DNA from: Nitrosomonadales bacterium
GTDB taxonomy: Bacteria; Pseudomonadota; Gammaproteobacteria; Burkholderiales; Gallionellaceae
Assembly: GCA_016214695.1 (NCBI GenBank)
Contig: JACRNY010000001.1
Span: forward strand, 496,001-560,000
Direction of reading: 5' to 3'
Length of the DNA: 64,000 bases
In this document: one piece after another, positions 3,338-38,043 of the stretch
Numbering within the stretch: the first letter of the stretch is position 1
Layout of the letters: the number at the start of each line of letters is the position of its first letter
Translations under genes and position numbers: made by a program
The notes under the pieces: generated by a model
What the model saw: only the letters and a program-made list of their open reading frames with translations
Told to the model about the DNA's origin: nothing
The model's database searches: none

Positions 3338-3386
3338 CAGCGTCCATAACCACGAAGGGGGTGGTTTCAATAGCTCTTTAGGGTTA
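3338..3386 (-). promoter_or_regulatory. Tandem 7-2-7 operator-like sites upstream of tusA
   Basis: Two 16-base elements 24 bp apart: TAACCACGAAGGGGGT (3347-3362) and TAGCTCTTTAGGGTTA (3371-3386). They are preceded by CAGCGTCCA (3338-3346). The second is a clear imperfect dyad (TAGCTCT / TAACCCT). The same arrangement occurs before soxY and, with variations, at two other loci in this window. The 7-2-7 geometry resembles NarL/FixJ-family binding sites; the regulator assignment is inference. Confidence 0.55.
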
Positions 3387-3502
3387 GCGGTTTTTTCCCT
3401 TTCGGCACAACGCTCCAACTGCGCCGACACGGCAGTCTCGTCACTCAAGAGACTGCCGCATAATCATCAACTTAATTCGTCATGCGCAACATCGGCTCAG
3501 AC

Positions 3503-9406: not shown

Positions 9407-9455
9407 CAGCGTCCATAGCTAGCACGGGGGGACTTGAGATAGCCCTTAGGAGTTA
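9407..9455 (-). promoter_or_regulatory. Tandem 7-2-7 operator-like sites upstream of soxY
   Basis: Two 16-base elements, TAGCTAGCACGGGGGG (9416-9431) and TAGCCCTTAGGAGTTA (9440-9455), exactly 24 bp apart and preceded by CAGCGTCCA (9407-9415). This flank, the spacing and the orientation toward the gene are the same as before tusA. Confidence 0.55.
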
Positions 9456-9485
9456 TAAGGATATTTGACAAAAACAGTCATGCAT

Positions 9486-19863: not shown

Positions 19864-19937
19864 GCACTGCCATAGCCGTGATGAGGGATTGAAGCATAAC
19901 CCGTAAGGGGGGTGCACACCTCAACCCATGAGGGCTA
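19864..19937. promoter_or_regulatory. Three tandem operator-like sites between soeA and sat
   Basis: Three 16-base elements: TAGCCGTGATGAGGGA (19873-19888), TAACCCGTAAGGGGGG (19897-19912) and CAACCCATGAGGGCTA (19922-19937), spaced 24 and 25 bp. They fill the middle of the 257-bp divergent region between soeA and sat and could serve both directions. The rest of the gap shows no convincing -35/-10 pair, though TACAAT lies shortly before the sat ribosome site. Confidence 0.55.
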
Positions 19938-20024
19938 TCGCCGACTTGAAGTTGTTGTTCTAGTGTGCGACACCTGAAGATTCATAAGTACTTGACTAGA
20001 TTACTACAATAAAGGGAGGCATGT

Positions 20025-32837: not shown

Positions 32838-32930
32838 TATTAATAGTTGACAATGGCACTCAGTAGTTTGAAGATGTGCTCTCGGGTTGATCTTTTTCCA
32901 GATCACCCTCGTCAGCAGGAGGACGCTATC

Positions 32931-33296
32931 ATGCTCGACATCAACAAAGCCATCAGCAATCCCCTACGTTATGAAAGTGATCCGGAAGGCAATCTGTCCG
33001 ATCTGGCTCAATGGTCTCCCAACCACGCGAACCAGCTGGCAGATGCCAAGGGGCTAGTGCTCACAGACGAACATTGGGAAGTCATCTACTATCTGCGCGA
33101 ACGCTTTCGCGAGCACGGCAACGAAGATAATGCGCGGGATGTGTTGCGCGATCTGGAAAAGCGGTTCGGCGACGAACGCGGGCGCGCTTACCTGTATGAG
33201 CTGTTCCCGCTTGGTCCGGTGAGTCAAGCCAGCCAACTGGCCGGTTTGCCGCTACCACCACACTGTCACGACCTGTCTTTCGGCAGTGTGATGTAA
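32931..33296 (+). CDS. TusE/DsrC-family sulfur-relay protein
   Basis: A 121-residue DsrC/TusE-like protein. Core features are DLAQWSPNHANQLADAKGLVLTDEHWEVI, YYLRERFREHG and GPVSQASQLAGLPLPPHC. In DsrC two C-terminal cysteines occur (CysB in QAC, CysA penultimate). Here the QAC cysteine is serine, leaving one cysteine as in TusE, and nine residues (HDLSFGSVM) follow it instead of one. AGGAGG lies eight bases before the chosen ATG. It is probably a sulfur carrier or a regulatory relative; no dsrAB is in the window. Confidence 0.82.
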   Translation: MLDINKAISNPLRYESDPEGNLSDLAQWSPNHANQLADAKGLVLTDEHWEVIYYLRERFREHGNEDNARDVLRDLEKRFGDERGRAYLYELFPLGPVSQASQLAGLPLPPHCHDLSFGSVM

Positions 33297-33419: not shown

Positions 33420-33806
33420 TCACGTCTGAGCCCAGGGCAAACCGTCGAAACGCCAGCCATTGTGGGAATTGCGGTGATGGTTGTCGTCGAGATCCCCCTC
33501 GAAACCGTGCGCCACATTGTAGATGTCCTTCATGCCGGCCTTCTCCAGCGCCTCGCCGGCATCAGCTGAGCGGCGACCGGAACGGCAGATGAGCACCACG
33601 GGGCGATTGACGCTGGAGGCTTTGCGCACCTTCGCAACAAAATGCGGGTCGATCTCCCAGTCCGGCCCGTCCACCCAAGGAATCAGTATGGATCCGCGTG
33701 GATGACCGACGAACATATGCTCCATCTCGCTGCGCACGTCGACGAAGACAGCCTCGGGGTTGGCTTGCAGGAAATCGTATGCCTCTTTGGGTTTGAGATG
33801 TTGCAT
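33420..33806 (-). CDS. Single-domain rhodanese (sulfurtransferase)
   Basis: A 128-residue rhodanese with the active-site loop ICRSGRRS, whose cysteine takes the persulfide, the VFVDVRSEMEHMFVGHPRG entrance motif and the WRFDGLPW end. It moves sulfane sulfur between donors and carriers such as TusA. In many sulfur oxidisers this gene sits directly with tusA-dsrE2; here it is 30 kb away and near the TusE-like gene. GGAGG precedes the ATG. Confidence 0.88.
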   Translation of the reverse strand: MQHLKPKEAYDFLQANPEAVFVDVRSEMEHMFVGHPRGSILIPWVDGPDWEIDPHFVAKVRKASSVNRPVVLICRSGRRSADAGEALEKAGMKDIYNVAHGFEGDLDDNHHRNSHNGWRFDGLPWAQT

Positions 33807-34031: not shown

Positions 34032-34562
34032 TCAACCCTGCGGTAGTTTGCGGATCTCGAAAGTCATGGTAGCCAGATCGCCAAGTATCCAGGTCGGGAT
34101 GGCTTTCACGCCGGGCGCGTCTATGCCCGCGACCGAACCGGGATTCACCAGCCAGCACTCGCCACCTTTGACATGGGACTGTTTGCCGATATGCGCCGTG
34201 TGGCTGTGGCCGTGGCAGACCAGATCGTAGTCGCCAGTACAGGCGAAAGCGTGGCCGTGGTGCGGCATATGAGTCACGAAGATCCTGCGTCCGCCGAGTT
34301 CCAGCATCGCCTCCTCACCGTAGTATGTGAAGATGCCCTCGGATTTTGCCATCATGCGATATAAAGAGGCGACATCACCGATGTTGTTGCCATGTACGGC
34401 GTGGATGGGGATGCCCAGTTTGAGGGAGGCGCGCAAGGTATTGACACCGATCAGGTCGCCGCAATGAATGACTGCCTGCGCACCTGCGGCCTGGGCTTCA
34501 ACGATAGCCTGCACGAGAGGATCGGAGCGGTCATGACTGTCTGAAACGATACAAATCTTCAT
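34032..34562 (-). CDS. YfcE/MJ0936-type metallophosphoesterase
   Basis: A 176-residue calcineurin-like phosphodiesterase. Metal-binding motifs are in order: SDSHD, HCGDLIG, HGNNIGD, VTHMPHHG and CHGHSHTAH, followed by LVNPGSVAG. Such enzymes hydrolyse phosphodiesters with Mn or similar metals; the natural substrate is unknown. The start at 34562 gives the canonical MKICIVSDSHD; the longer frame to 34646 runs through the operator-like region. It is divergent from the GAF kinase operon and shares its intergenic region. Confidence 0.88.
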   Translation of the reverse strand: MKICIVSDSHDRSDPLVQAIVEAQAAGAQAVIHCGDLIGVNTLRASLKLGIPIHAVHGNNIGDVASLYRMMAKSEGIFTYYGEEAMLELGGRRIFVTHMPHHGHAFACTGDYDLVCHGHSHTAHIGKQSHVKGGECWLVNPGSVAGIDAPGVKAIPTWILGDLATMTFEIRKLPQG

Positions 34563-34611
34563 ACTGTTTTCATGTTGCTGGGTTCGATGCATTAGGCAGA
34601 ATCGGCGCATG

Positions 34612-34661
34612 CAGTGTCTATAACCACATCGGGTAATATCGACCATAATCCTGATGGGGTA
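34612..34661. promoter_or_regulatory. Tandem operator-like sites between metallophosphoesterase and GAF kinase
   Basis: TAACCACATCGGGTAA (34621-34636) and TAATCCTGATGGGGTA (34646-34661), 25 bp apart, preceded by CAGTGTCTA (34612-34620), which parallels CAGCGTCCA at the tusA and soxY sites. By analogy the flank points toward the metallophosphoesterase, but the kinase-regulator-sqr operon starts on the other side at 34806 and could be controlled too. Confidence 0.5.
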
Positions 34662-34805
34662 ATAGAAAAAATTCCCTTCGCCGCGGATTGATATTTAAGG
34701 GAAAGCGGCTTAACCTTGCGGTCGGCATTCGACTGCCGGAAATTTATTTCACTCAAACAATTTGCGAACTCGTTGTAATTTTCAGACATTATTCAGCTGA
34801 ATGCT

Positions 34806-36029
34806 ATGGGCAGAAAGATGAAGTCAGCAGACGAACCGGACACCGCGGCGTTCTTCTGGACGCGCGATCCCGATTTCGTGCTTCCCGGCAAGAACGGCGG
34901 ACTGGACAACTGTGTGGAACAGGCGTTCGCCGCATCCCGTTCCAGCGACCTGGGCACTTTGCTGAACTCCTTTCTCGAGACCGCCATCGGTTTCATCAAG
35001 GCGCGTGCCGGCGTGGTACGAGTGCTGCTTCCCGACGAACAGACCCTGCAGGTCATCAGCGCGGTAGGGCTGAGCGGAGAAGAACTGGAAGCAGAGCGCA
35101 TTGTCGAATTGGCGTGCGAAGATTGTGGCAAGGATGCCTTCAGGCACGGCCTTTGCACCACCGATGTGACCACCTGCGAGACCCGGCACAGCGATCAACC
35201 GCATGGCCAGTTCCAGTCGGTGATCTCCATCCCGCTGGAAAGCCGCAACTCCCCCGAAACAATGCTTGGCGTCTTCACCCTCTTCTTCGACACTCCGCAA
35301 TCCTCCTCCGGCAACGCAGCGACCATGGCAATCAGTTTCGCCGACCTGCTGGGAACCCTGCTCGAGCATATCAAGTCGACACGCGAAGCAAAACGCGAAG
35401 AGCTGCTGCGGGAACGCCAGTCCATCGCCAACGAGATCCACGATTCGCTGGCTCAGACGCTTAACTATGCGCGCATGAACACCACCCTGCTGAGCGACGC
35501 AGTACGCAACAACAACGAGGTGATGGCGACCAAGTATGCCCGCGACATCGACGAAGCCCTGGAGATCGGCCAAAAAGCGGTGCGCACACTGATCACCGAT
35601 TTCCGCAGCGAAATGGATCCGGCCGGCCTGCTCCATGCACTACAGACGCTGGCCGAAAAGTTCGGCCAGCAACACGAGATCTCGCTCGATTGCTCCATCC
35701 GCGTCGCCGACCTCGATCTGCCGCTGGAACACGAGATCCAGGCCTATCACATCGTGCGCGAGGCGCTTTCCAACATCATCAAACATTCCAACGCCAGCCA
35801 TGCCCGCCTGATCGTGGACCATCTCTGCGGCTACTATGTGTTCACCGTGGAGGATAACGGTGTAGGCACCTTCTCGCCTGTAGAAGGCCATTACGGGATC
35901 ATCATCATGCGCGAGCGGGCGCAACGTATCGGCGGCGAAATCAAGGTAGAAAGCACCAAAGGACTGGGAACATGCGTACAATTATTCTTCCCTGAACCGG
36001 GGACGAACTGGAGAACCGCGCATGCCTGA
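34806..36029 (+). CDS. Cytoplasmic GAF-domain sensor kinase, NarX/NreB-like (HisKA_3)
   Basis: A 407-residue kinase without membrane segments. A GAF-like domain (about 40-195) contains four cysteines in the pattern C-x2-C-x9-C-x6-C (Cys104, 107, 117, 124), which could bind an iron-sulfur cluster or sense thiol/persulfide state. The kinase core is of the NarX class: IANEIHDSLAQTLNYAR holds the phospho-acceptor histidine, REALSNIIKHSNASHARL the N box, and VEDNGVGTF the G box. Start choice is uncertain (ATG 34806 or 34818; weak ribosome sites). Its stop overlaps the regulator start by eight bases, and sqr follows. Confidence 0.9.
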   Translation: MGRKMKSADEPDTAAFFWTRDPDFVLPGKNGGLDNCVEQAFAASRSSDLGTLLNSFLETAIGFIKARAGVVRVLLPDEQTLQVISAVGLSGEELEAERIVELACEDCGKDAFRHGLCTTDVTTCETRHSDQPHGQFQSVISIPLESRNSPETMLGVFTLFFDTPQSSSGNAATMAISFADLLGTLLEHIKSTREAKREELLRERQSIANEIHDSLAQTLNYARMNTTLLSDAVRNNNEVMATKYARDIDEALEIGQKAVRTLITDFRSEMDPAGLLHALQTLAEKFGQQHEISLDCSIRVADLDLPLEHEIQAYHIVREALSNIIKHSNASHARLIVDHLCGYYVFTVEDNGVGTFSPVEGHYGIIIMRERAQRIGGEIKVESTKGLGTCVQLFFPEPGTNWRTAHA

Positions 36030-36729
36030 GGAATTGAAGATCGCACTGGTAGATGACCAGAGCCTGTGTCGACGCGGATTGAGCGAACTGCTGACCCGCT
36101 GTTACGGTTTCAACGTACTTGGCGCAGTCGGCACCATCGAGGATCTGCGCGCCCTGATCAAGGAGCAGCCGGATCTGCTGGTCATGGACCTGCGCATGAA
36201 GCCGATGGATGGCCTGGCGATGCTGGAACAGTTACGCAAAGAAGGCTGCACCATCCCTGCTGTGGTGCTGACCATGAGCGACTCGGAAACCGATCTTGGC
36301 AATGCGATCCGCGCCGGTGCGCGCGGTTACCTGCTGAAGGACATGGCCCCGGAAGAGGTGGTGGATGCCATCCGCCGCGTGGCCGCGGGCGAACTGGTGG
36401 TCGCCCCCACCATGACCGTCAAGATGATCGACATGCTGCGAGGCGACCAGCCCGGGCAGGAGCCGAAAAATTCGCTCAAACTGCTGACCGAGCGAGAGCG
36501 TGAGATTCTGCAGCTTTTGTCACGCGGAGAAAGCAACAAAGCGATCGCTCAGACCCTGAAGATCAGCTACGACACGGTGAAGCAGCACGTTCGCCACATC
36601 CTGAACAAGCTCAACCTGTCATCGCGCGTGAAGGCTGCCGTGCTGTTCGCCAAGGAACAGGGCATGCCTGAAGACAGCGAGTCGTTATCGAACAAGCATA
36701 TCGAATCAAAGCAGCAGAGCAGCAAATGA
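36022..36729 (+). CDS. NarL-family response regulator
   Basis: A 235-residue regulator: receiver domain (ALVDDQSLCRRGL, LLVMDLRMKPMDG with the phospho-acceptor Asp, LTMSDSETD, YLLKDMAPEEV) and a C-terminal LuxR/NarL helix-turn-helix (LTEREREILQLLSRGESNKAIAQTLK, then DTVKQHVRHILNKLNLSSR). GGAG is eight bases before the ATG. It pairs with the overlapping GAF kinase and precedes sqr by 42 bp. NarL-family proteins bind 7-2-7 heptamer repeats, matching the geometry of the shared sites in this window; that link is inference. Confidence 0.93.
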   Translation: MPEELKIALVDDQSLCRRGLSELLTRCYGFNVLGAVGTIEDLRALIKEQPDLLVMDLRMKPMDGLAMLEQLRKEGCTIPAVVLTMSDSETDLGNAIRAGARGYLLKDMAPEEVVDAIRRVAAGELVVAPTMTVKMIDMLRGDQPGQEPKNSLKLLTEREREILQLLSRGESNKAIAQTLKISYDTVKQHVRHILNKLNLSSRVKAAVLFAKEQGMPEDSESLSNKHIESKQQSSK

Positions 36730-36771: not shown

Positions 36772-38043
36772 ATGGCGCACATCGTCATCATGGGAGCGGG
36801 GGTCGGCGGCATGCCGGCAGCGTACGAAATGCGGGAAAAACTGGACAAGAAGCACAAGGTCACAGTCGTCTCGAACAGCGAGAACTTCCATTTCGTCCCT
36901 TCCAACCCGTGGGTTGGTGTGAAATGGCGCGAGCGCAAGCAGATCGAATTCCCGGTGCGCACCTACCTGGAGCGCAAGGGGATCGAGTTCATCTCCACCG
37001 GCGTGAAACGCGTGCATCCGGACCAGAACAAGCTTGAACTGAACGACGGCAAACATATCGATTATGACTATCTGGTCATCGCCACCGGTCCGAAGCTGGC
37101 CTTTGAAGAGGTCGAAGGCCTGGGCCCGCACGGCGGCCATACCTATTCCGTCTGCCACGTAGACCATGCGATGAAATCGCACGATGAATGGGAGCATTTC
37201 TGCAAGAACCCCGGCCCCATCGTGGTCGGCGCAGTCCAGGGCGCCTCCTGTTTCGGGCCCGCCTACGAGTACGCCTTCATCATGGATACCGATCTGCGCA
37301 AGCGCAAACTGCGCAGCAAGGTGCCGATGACCTTCGTCACCTCGGAACCCTATATCGGCCACCTCGGTCTGGGCGGCGTGGGCGACTCCAAGGGCATCCT
37401 CGAGTCCGGCATGCGCGACAAGCACATCAAGTGGATCTGCAATGCCAAGGTCACCAAGGTCGAAGCCGGCAAGATGTACGTCACCGAGCATGACGATATG
37501 GGCGTGGAGAAGAAGAAGCACGAACTGCCGTTCAGCTACAGCATGATGCTGCCAGCATTCAAGGGCGTCGATGCCGTGTTCGGTCTCGAAGGGCTGACCA
37601 ACCCGCGCGGATTCATCACAGTGGACAAGCACCAGCGCAATGCGAAGTACAAGAACATCTTCGCCGTCGGCGTCTGCGTGGCCATCCCGCCGGTCGAACC
37701 CACCCCGATCCCGGTCGGCACCCCAAAGACCGGTTACATGATCGAGTCCATGGTGACCGCTACCGTGTACAACATCCATGCCGACCTGGTGGGCGAACCT
37801 GCCGACCATGAAGCGACCTGGAACGCTGTGTGTTTGGCCGATTTCGGCGAGAGCGGCGTGGCCTTCGTGGCCATTCCTCAGATTCCGCCGCGCAATGTGA
37901 ACTGGTTCTCTGAAGGCAAGTGGGTGCACCTGGCCAAGGTCGCGTTCGAGAAGTACTTCATCCGCAAGATGAAGAAAGGTACGTCCGAGCCGTTCTATGA
38001 AGGCAGCATCATGAAGATGCTGGGTATCGAAAAGCTGAAATAA
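36772..38043 (+). CDS. sqr: Sulfide:quinone oxidoreductase
   Basis: A 423-residue FAD protein that oxidises sulfide to sulfane sulfur and reduces membrane quinone. The dinucleotide fold starts at residue 4 (IVIMGAGVGGMPAAYEM). The three catalytic cysteines of SQR are visible: Cys128 (YSVCHVDH), Cys160 (GASCFGPAYEYAF) and Cys354 (NAVCLADFG). The C-terminal segment (WVHLAKVAFEKYFIRKMKKG) is the amphipathic membrane-binding end typical of SQR. GAGGAG precedes the ATG. Being last in the kinase-regulator operon suggests sulfide-linked control. Confidence 0.93.
   Translation: MAHIVIMGAGVGGMPAAYEMREKLDKKHKVTVVSNSENFHFVPSNPWVGVKWRERKQIEFPVRTYLERKGIEFISTGVKRVHPDQNKLELNDGKHIDYDYLVIATGPKLAFEEVEGLGPHGGHTYSVCHVDHAMKSHDEWEHFCKNPGPIVVGAVQGASCFGPAYEYAFIMDTDLRKRKLRSKVPMTFVTSEPYIGHLGLGGVGDSKGILESGMRDKHIKWICNAKVTKVEAGKMYVTEHDDMGVEKKKHELPFSYSMMLPAFKGVDAVFGLEGLTNPRGFITVDKHQRNAKYKNIFAVGVCVAIPPVEPTPIPVGTPKTGYMIESMVTATVYNIHADLVGEPADHEATWNAVCLADFGESGVAFVAIPQIPPRNVNWFSEGKWVHLAKVAFEKYFIRKMKKGTSEPFYEGSIMKMLGIEKLK

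Follow-up and report, generated by a model that had tools for sequence, protein, structure and literature searches.

A soluble GAF sensor kinase and a NarL-like regulator associated with tandem-dyad promoters of sulfur-oxidation genes in a Gallionellaceae bacterium

TtrSR is the two-component system of tetrathionate respiration, which is a reduction and not an oxidation. RsrS-RsrR and TspS-TspR differ from the pair considered here in the types of their regulators and are not known to have a link to the Dsr pathway. The regulators of sox described for Hyphomicrobium are ArsR-type repressors, as far as the accessible part of the source goes (PMC12423496). For NarL, the available text of a further source gives an engineered site, TACCCCTAAAGGGGTA, and, for the activated napF promoter, a site of 7-2-7 type at positions −40 to −49 (PMC4549865). 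Neither a transcriptional regulator dedicated to the oxidative Dsr pathway nor a description of the two-component system presented below was found in the literature searched, the coverage of which mostly did not extend to subscription papers.

The window, that is the whole stretch of DNA analysed, comprises 64,000 nucleotides (C2:496001-560000) of a 2.66-Mb Gallionellaceae assembly. On its plus strand, family searches identified a soluble GAF-HisKA_3-HATPase sensor kinase (34806..36029), a NarL-like response regulator with REC and GerE domains and the recognition helix DTVKQHVRHIL (36022..36729), and a sulfide:quinone oxidoreductase-like (sqr-like) flavoprotein (36772..38043). The sqr-like gene, which a first-pass annotation of this DNA placed in one operon with the kinase, follows the regulator after a gap of 42 bp and has no promoter module of its own, unlike sqr in several relatives. 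Among named sequences, the kinase is nearest to one of a Nitrosomonadales MAG (92% identity) and one of Sideroxyarcus sp. (90%). On the minus strand lie a metallophosphoesterase gene (34032..34562; Metallophos_2, 4e-28; start MKICIVSDS at 34562), which belongs to the YfcE family by its score against TIGR00040 (58 bits, cut-off 56.25), and 3' of it a rhodanese gene (33420..33806). Two overlapping sets of kinase loci were compared, one of 15 and one of 30, the latter including the genome itself. The order in which rhodanese and phosphoesterase genes face kinase, regulator and sqr is widely conserved among these loci; the phosphoesterase is divergent from the kinase in many relatives, and the rhodanese gene is directly divergent from it in some. 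A DsrC/TusE-family gene (32925..33296, plus strand; TIGR03342, 87.3 bits, cut-off 53.5) adjoins the rhodanese and phosphoesterase genes, apart from the dsr cluster. In two genomes of other families (L237, L238), a YfcE-like phosphoesterase is found near sat as well, which suggests a link to ATP sulfurylase or to nucleotide turnover in sulfur oxidation.

Two 7-2-7 dyads occupy the region between the phosphoesterase and the kinase, and both are real and conserved. Facing the phosphoesterase on the minus strand, the proximal dyad TAACCACATCGGGTAA (TAACCAC-AT-CGGGTAA; 34621..34636) is centred at about −45.5 and the distal dyad TAATCCTGATGGGGTA (TAATCCT-GA-TGGGGTA; 34646..34661) at about −70.5 from the start site predicted by the −10 box. 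Directly at the proximal dyad, a TATAGAC block (34616..34622, minus strand) takes the place of a degenerate −35, and 27 nt after the first T of this block begins the phosphoesterase's −10 box, CTAATG (34590..34595, minus strand). Like pairs were found before genes of the window that we take, from sequence and established knowledge, to be tusA, soxYZ, a soeA-like molybdoenzyme gene and sat; the dsrE2 gene was identified by family search (NF047629, 275.9 bits, cut-off 210). One pair faces tusA-dsrE2 (3347..3386, minus strand; elements 3347/3371, module match 3343-3391), one faces soxY (9416..9455, minus strand; elements 9416/9440, module match 9412-9461), and one lies between the soeA-like gene on the minus strand and sat on the plus strand (19897..19937; elements 19897/19921, module match 19896-19940). 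Start-to-start spacing is 25 at 34621/34646 and 24 at tusA, soxY and soeA/sat alike. In the promoter module thus defined, a pair of NarL-type dyads with a spacing of about 24 bp adjoins TAT[AG]GAC, and the dyad sequences of the window include TAGCTCTTTAGGGTTA. Nine such elements had been claimed in the first-pass annotation; eight were found, as these four pairs, and no ninth was scored within the window when the own genome was searched by profile.

A loose single-dyad consensus was not significant in the window alone (5 matches against 2.56 expected), and an assessment of the motif on the window by itself was rejected. The case for the dyads rests on their tandem layout and on conservation. 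Footprinting among the relatives compared yielded three conserved blocks in the kinase intergenic region, namely a −10-like CATTAG, which reads CTAATG in the direction of the phosphoesterase, the tandem dyads with GTCTATA, and TTGATA-N17-TAACCT directed at the kinase. Allowing up to 3 mismatches, the relatives' consensus for the proximal dyad has its sole window match at 34619-34636 (shuffle mean 0.02), and that for the distal dyad its sole match at 34645-34662 (shuffle mean 0.00). A TATAAT/YTAATN box starts 26-27 nt after the first T of TAT[AG]GAC in 26/26 kinase-locus and 26/26 tusA promoters, and the phosphoesterase and tusA promoters of the window fit this spacing too. It fits just 1/5 soxY promoters, the window's own not among them, and most soeA/sat modules have no TAT[AG]GAC anchor. 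Where the −10 layout holds, the dyad centres fall near −45 and −70; this position upstream of a poor −35 is what leads us to infer activation through the dyads.

The module was sought across genomes with three profiles, R1 built from 26 modules (including 3 of the own genome, at tusA, soxY and soeA/sat), R2 from 58, and R3 from kinase-locus modules only, so as to reduce circularity. Applied to the own genome with a threshold of E<=10, R1 recovered the four modules, matched soeA/sat on the second strand too, and scored a weak site (E=0.22) located between dsrA and the genes that lead to dsrC; this weak site is not among the R2 matches at E<=0.5. A second SoxY homologue (55% identity) is encoded just left of the window (G000:C2:493743-494222), with no module scored there. 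Among the matches listed, 73/120 family genomes have an R1 match at E<=0.01, and 65 R1 matches lie away from the kinase locus. The neighbourhoods of 60 of these were analysed (those left out are G011:C198, G101:C63, G110:C247, G032:C56 and G113:C48), and 58/60 adjoin sulfur or allied genes: tusA-dsrE in 26, soeA and/or sat in 22, soxY in 6, and sqr, a SulP permease gene, a cytochrome c gene and dsrA/dsrC in one each. Of the remaining two, one is at a contig end (L143) and the other lies just upstream of cytochrome bc1 genes (L099). The latter module (L099:1285-1330; G010:C30) stands just 5' of a likely Rieske gene, assigned by inspection of an open frame from 1386, and of cytochrome b; bc1 is a general electron-transport complex. 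R3 gave 11 matches away from kinase loci at E<=0.01, about 1.2 being predicted by chance from the E-values: 8 beside tusA, soxY, sqr or SulP, the bc1 site, and 2 others. R3 proved too narrow, finding only one own-genome module at E<=0.05 and missing the other own modules. One relative, G050, has four R2 matches at three places (phosphoesterase, tusA and soeA/sat) and none of the four at soxY. Two loci (L213, L215) show no sulfur gene, and L215, inside a GGDEF-EAL gene, was taken as false. The sulfur regulon that had been proposed from the window is thus supported by the genome-wide search, and we regard a conserved sulfur-oxidation regulon as nearly certain. Published induction fits a thiosulfate-responsive programme and does not bear on the module sites themselves.

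The first-pass annotation had staked its proposal on the motif travelling with this two-component system in related genomes, and it does so: among the 120 genomes of the family, 71 have both kinase and module, 3 the kinase only, 2 the module only and 44 neither (Fisher p about 1e-26, a value that treats genomes as independent and ignores their relatedness). The kinase-only genomes (G034, G049, G098) have no R1 match; in G034, R3 scored a match close to the kinase, and in G049 a weak match. The module-only genomes (G101, G111) are 69% and 53% complete. When only modules away from the kinase locus were counted, 46 family genomes had both, 28 the kinase only, 2 the module only and 44 neither. Across 399 genomes of the order, the corresponding numbers are 21, 57, 1 and 320, and without the own family 12, 57, 1 and 316. 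The one module-only genome, G311 (f37), has modules at sat and dsr and no kinase at E<=1e-45; the other motif-positive sampled members of its genus have the kinase, and an assembly gap is possible. SoxY is present in 231/399 order genomes among the matches listed, so that the module does not track SoxY by itself; within the family, 52/52 SoxY-positive genomes carry the kinase. Ancestry and the Dsr pathway itself both confound the co-occurrence, and the link between module and two-component system is strong but inferential.

The kinase also accompanies oxidative dsrA. DsrA is encoded in 64/300 genomes of an order sample, which divides into 56 genomes with kinase and DsrA (their membership of the sample is deduced), 8 with DsrA and no detected kinase, and 236 with neither. 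Outside the sample, dsrA is present in 12/12 kinase-positive genomes checked, giving oxidative dsrA in 68/68 kinase-positive genomes examined, of 78 that are kinase-positive in the order. Among other-family kinases, 17/20 have no sulfur-library gene, kinase and regulator homologues aside, within stretches of up to 19.5 kb. That these kinases lie away from sulfur genes was considered and rejected: dsrA is mostly just beyond those stretches, kinase and dsrA sharing a contig in 36/56 genomes and lying <=40 kb apart in 30/36. In the own-genome dsr cluster, a gene for a Cas6/Cmx6-like protein (TIGR02807, 128.3 bits, cut-off 98.85; L054:1864-2460) sits between a small-protein gene and the DsrC gene, and one is found at the equivalent position across families (L200, L201, L203, L205, L208, L209, L210, L212, L214, L219).

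Upstream of dsrA in 20 other-family kinase-positive genomes, none of which is among the R2 matches of the order search, a variant dyad TA[ACG]YC-N4/5-GRG(Y)TA occurs in 18/20 (shuffle control mean 0.34, maximum 3; last ten genomes 8/10 against 0.1), the pattern having been written after inspection of all 20 sequences. Companion elements 10-40 nt from the variant dyad are spaced at 23 or 24 nt in 11/15 ordered pairs. We read these data as pointing to one regulator and one site probably common to the order, the site having drifted.

Several features suggest that the regulator reads the dyads, which we consider likely from its sequence and theirs. Its best solved relative is NarL (5.5e-39), it has the REC and GerE domains of NarL/NarP, and sites of 7-2-7 geometry are conserved at the putative targets. 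Its helix TVKQHVRHIL is NarL-like (TVKVHVKHML in NarL), the variable position being Q, L or M across 57 distinct sequences. Three other GerE regulators were compared, two beside HisKA_3 kinases and one FixJ-like in the window; their helices are TVSTHKARLM, TVSVYRSRLL and TVQVHCQNLK, and the NarL-like helix is found in this one alone of the four. The genome encodes three further HisKA_3 kinases (L001, L002, L004); these were considered as well, and the two regulators beside them have a different helix. It is unlikely, though the likeliest of the alternatives, that a different transcription factor reads the dyads of a real regulon and that the two-component system is merely linked to the same gene clusters. 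Recognition by this regulator is argued from sequence, G311 has modules with no detected kinase, and the R2 module, present in 17/56 kinase- and dsrA-positive genomes, is missing in 39/56, all of which favour such a factor. Against it stand the co-occurrence of kinase and module outside the own family as well as within it, a recognition helix set apart from those of the other three regulators, the variant dyads at dsrA in kinase-bearing other families, and the closeness of the dyads to NarL's engineered palindrome as given in the accessible portion of PMC4549865.

The two elements at 34621 and 34646 had been taken as a sign of autoregulation of the kinase operon, with the caveat that they may serve the metallophosphoesterase. 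The caveat proved the better reading. Among the R1 matches listed, 61/61 of those lying upstream of a kinase are directed away from that kinase, and 21/21 downstream of a kinase point in sqr's direction of transcription, sqr following the module in 14/14 of these 21 checked by DNA. At four loci (L037, L040, L041, L044) the phosphoesterase is not at the kinase locus, the dyads are absent and the kinase promoter is retained; L043 still has the dyads, together with what is left of the phosphoesterase start. In other families, modules upstream of the kinase face soeA (L201, L202, L207) or the tusA side (L200, L209). Since the elements are oriented opposite to the kinase, are lost with the phosphoesterase, and leave a separate kinase promoter, they belong to the promoter of the divergent phosphoesterase. 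The kinase-regulator-sqr operon has its own sigma-70-type promoter, TTGATA-N17-TAACCT (34688..34716, plus strand), which relatives without the dyads keep. On the orientation of the 61 modules and the four dyad-less loci, we reject autoregulation as what the elements chiefly do. That they additionally act in both directions across the divergent region is distinctly improbable: the distal dyad is centred about 69.5 bp upstream of the predicted kinase start, where activators can act, and may for this reason have a side effect on the kinase, yet the uniform orientation, the retained promoter at the dyad-less loci and the soeA- or tusA-facing modules of other families all weigh against it.

By hydropathy the kinase is soluble, in keeping with the cytoplasmic location given in the first-pass annotation: its highest 19-residue Kyte-Doolittle mean is 1.23 and no transmembrane stretch is present, so that it does not belong with the membrane-bound periplasmic sensors NarX and NarQ. 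Its match to GAF is weak (GAF_2, 5.4e-6, 27.1 bits, below the cut-off of 28.6). The four cysteines attributed to it held in part. Among 58 distinct sequences, C104 and C124 are near-invariant (57 each), but C107 is found in 51 and C117 in only 30, so that the four cysteines do not form a strictly conserved cluster. The kinase may be a sensor of redox state, of a metal or of sulfane sulfur. More specifically, it could sense intracellular sulfane sulfur or the state of a sulfur relay by means of the GAF-domain residues C104 and C124, and be an order-wide, dedicated master activator of oxidative Dsr, together with Sox, Soe/Sat, Tus and Sqr, through a site that drifted along with the regulator between TACYCC-N4-GGGTAG and TAACCC-N4-GGGTTA; we offer this tentatively and think it rather doubtful as a whole. 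That the dyads repress, or that a nitrate/nitrite sensor system sets sulfur oxidation by electron acceptor, is quite unlikely, for although the transmitter is closest to NarQ/NarX and the regulator to NarL among NCBIfam models, both fall below the equivalog cut-offs (NarQ 157.7 of 553, NarX 115.9 of 578; NarL 189.5 of 250, NarP 163.8 of 343), the kinase has no transmembrane segment and tracks dsrA, and sites upstream of a poor −35 fit activation.

The explanation we favour, and believe probable as a whole, is that the window holds a sensor-regulator pair and one target promoter, that of the phosphoesterase, of a conserved oxidative sulfur regulon. The soluble GAF kinase would sense an intracellular cue of sulfur oxidation and, by analogy with its family, phosphorylate the NarL-like regulator, dimers of which would, to judge from site geometry and recognition helix, bind two dyads near −45 and −70. 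The bound regulator would then activate promoters with a poor −35, the predicted targets being tusA-dsrE2, soxYZ, soeA/sat, sqr, dsr and the YfcE-like phosphoesterase. The kinase's presence in 56/64 dsrA-positive genomes and 0/236 others of the 300-genome sample, together with a defined module, makes it testable which signal induces the oxidation of sulfur and how facultative oxidisers of iron or sulfur make their choice. Targets in unculturable genomes can likewise be predicted from the module, which also puts the YfcE-like phosphoesterase into a sulfur context. The repeated signals and the sensor-regulator pair, which travels with the metabolism across the order, suggest that microbial sulfur oxidation has a dedicated switch that turns it on.

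Each of the described systems shares part of this arrangement. SoxR, sHdrR, SqrR and BigR likewise control sox and cytoplasmic sulfur-oxidation genes and have a conserved sensor cysteine pair, as described in the available part of PMC12423496, whereas they are ArsR-type one-component repressors and the present system is two-component, with dyads upstream of the −35 position and a REC-GerE regulator in place of a one-component winged-helix protein. RsrS-RsrR and TspS-TspR of Acidithiobacillus resemble it, in the text accessible to us, as two-component control of thiosulfate or tetrathionate oxidation (PMC5093147) and differ in that their target is the tetrathionate pathway. TtrSR also employs a NarL/FixJ-class regulator for a sulfur pathway, although the regulator of the window scores just 52.6 bits to TtrR (cut-off 290). 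The closest likeness is to NarX/NarQ-NarL/NarP, in regulator domains, recognition helix, HisKA_3 transmitter and inverted heptamers with a 2-bp gap. The window dyads resemble TACCCCTAAAGGGGTA, and the module dyad centred near −45 is placed similarly to the −40 to −49 site at napF, both comparisons drawing on the portion of PMC4549865 at hand. Unlike those systems, the one described here has a soluble GAF sensor with no membrane segment, its proteins score below the equivalog cut-offs, and its putative targets are promoters of sulfur oxidation in which the dyads stand in tandem, at a distance of about 24 bp. It is therefore, within an explanation that we hold to be probable overall, a NarL-type two-component system in a new form, joining a soluble GAF sensor to a sulfur-oxidation regulon.
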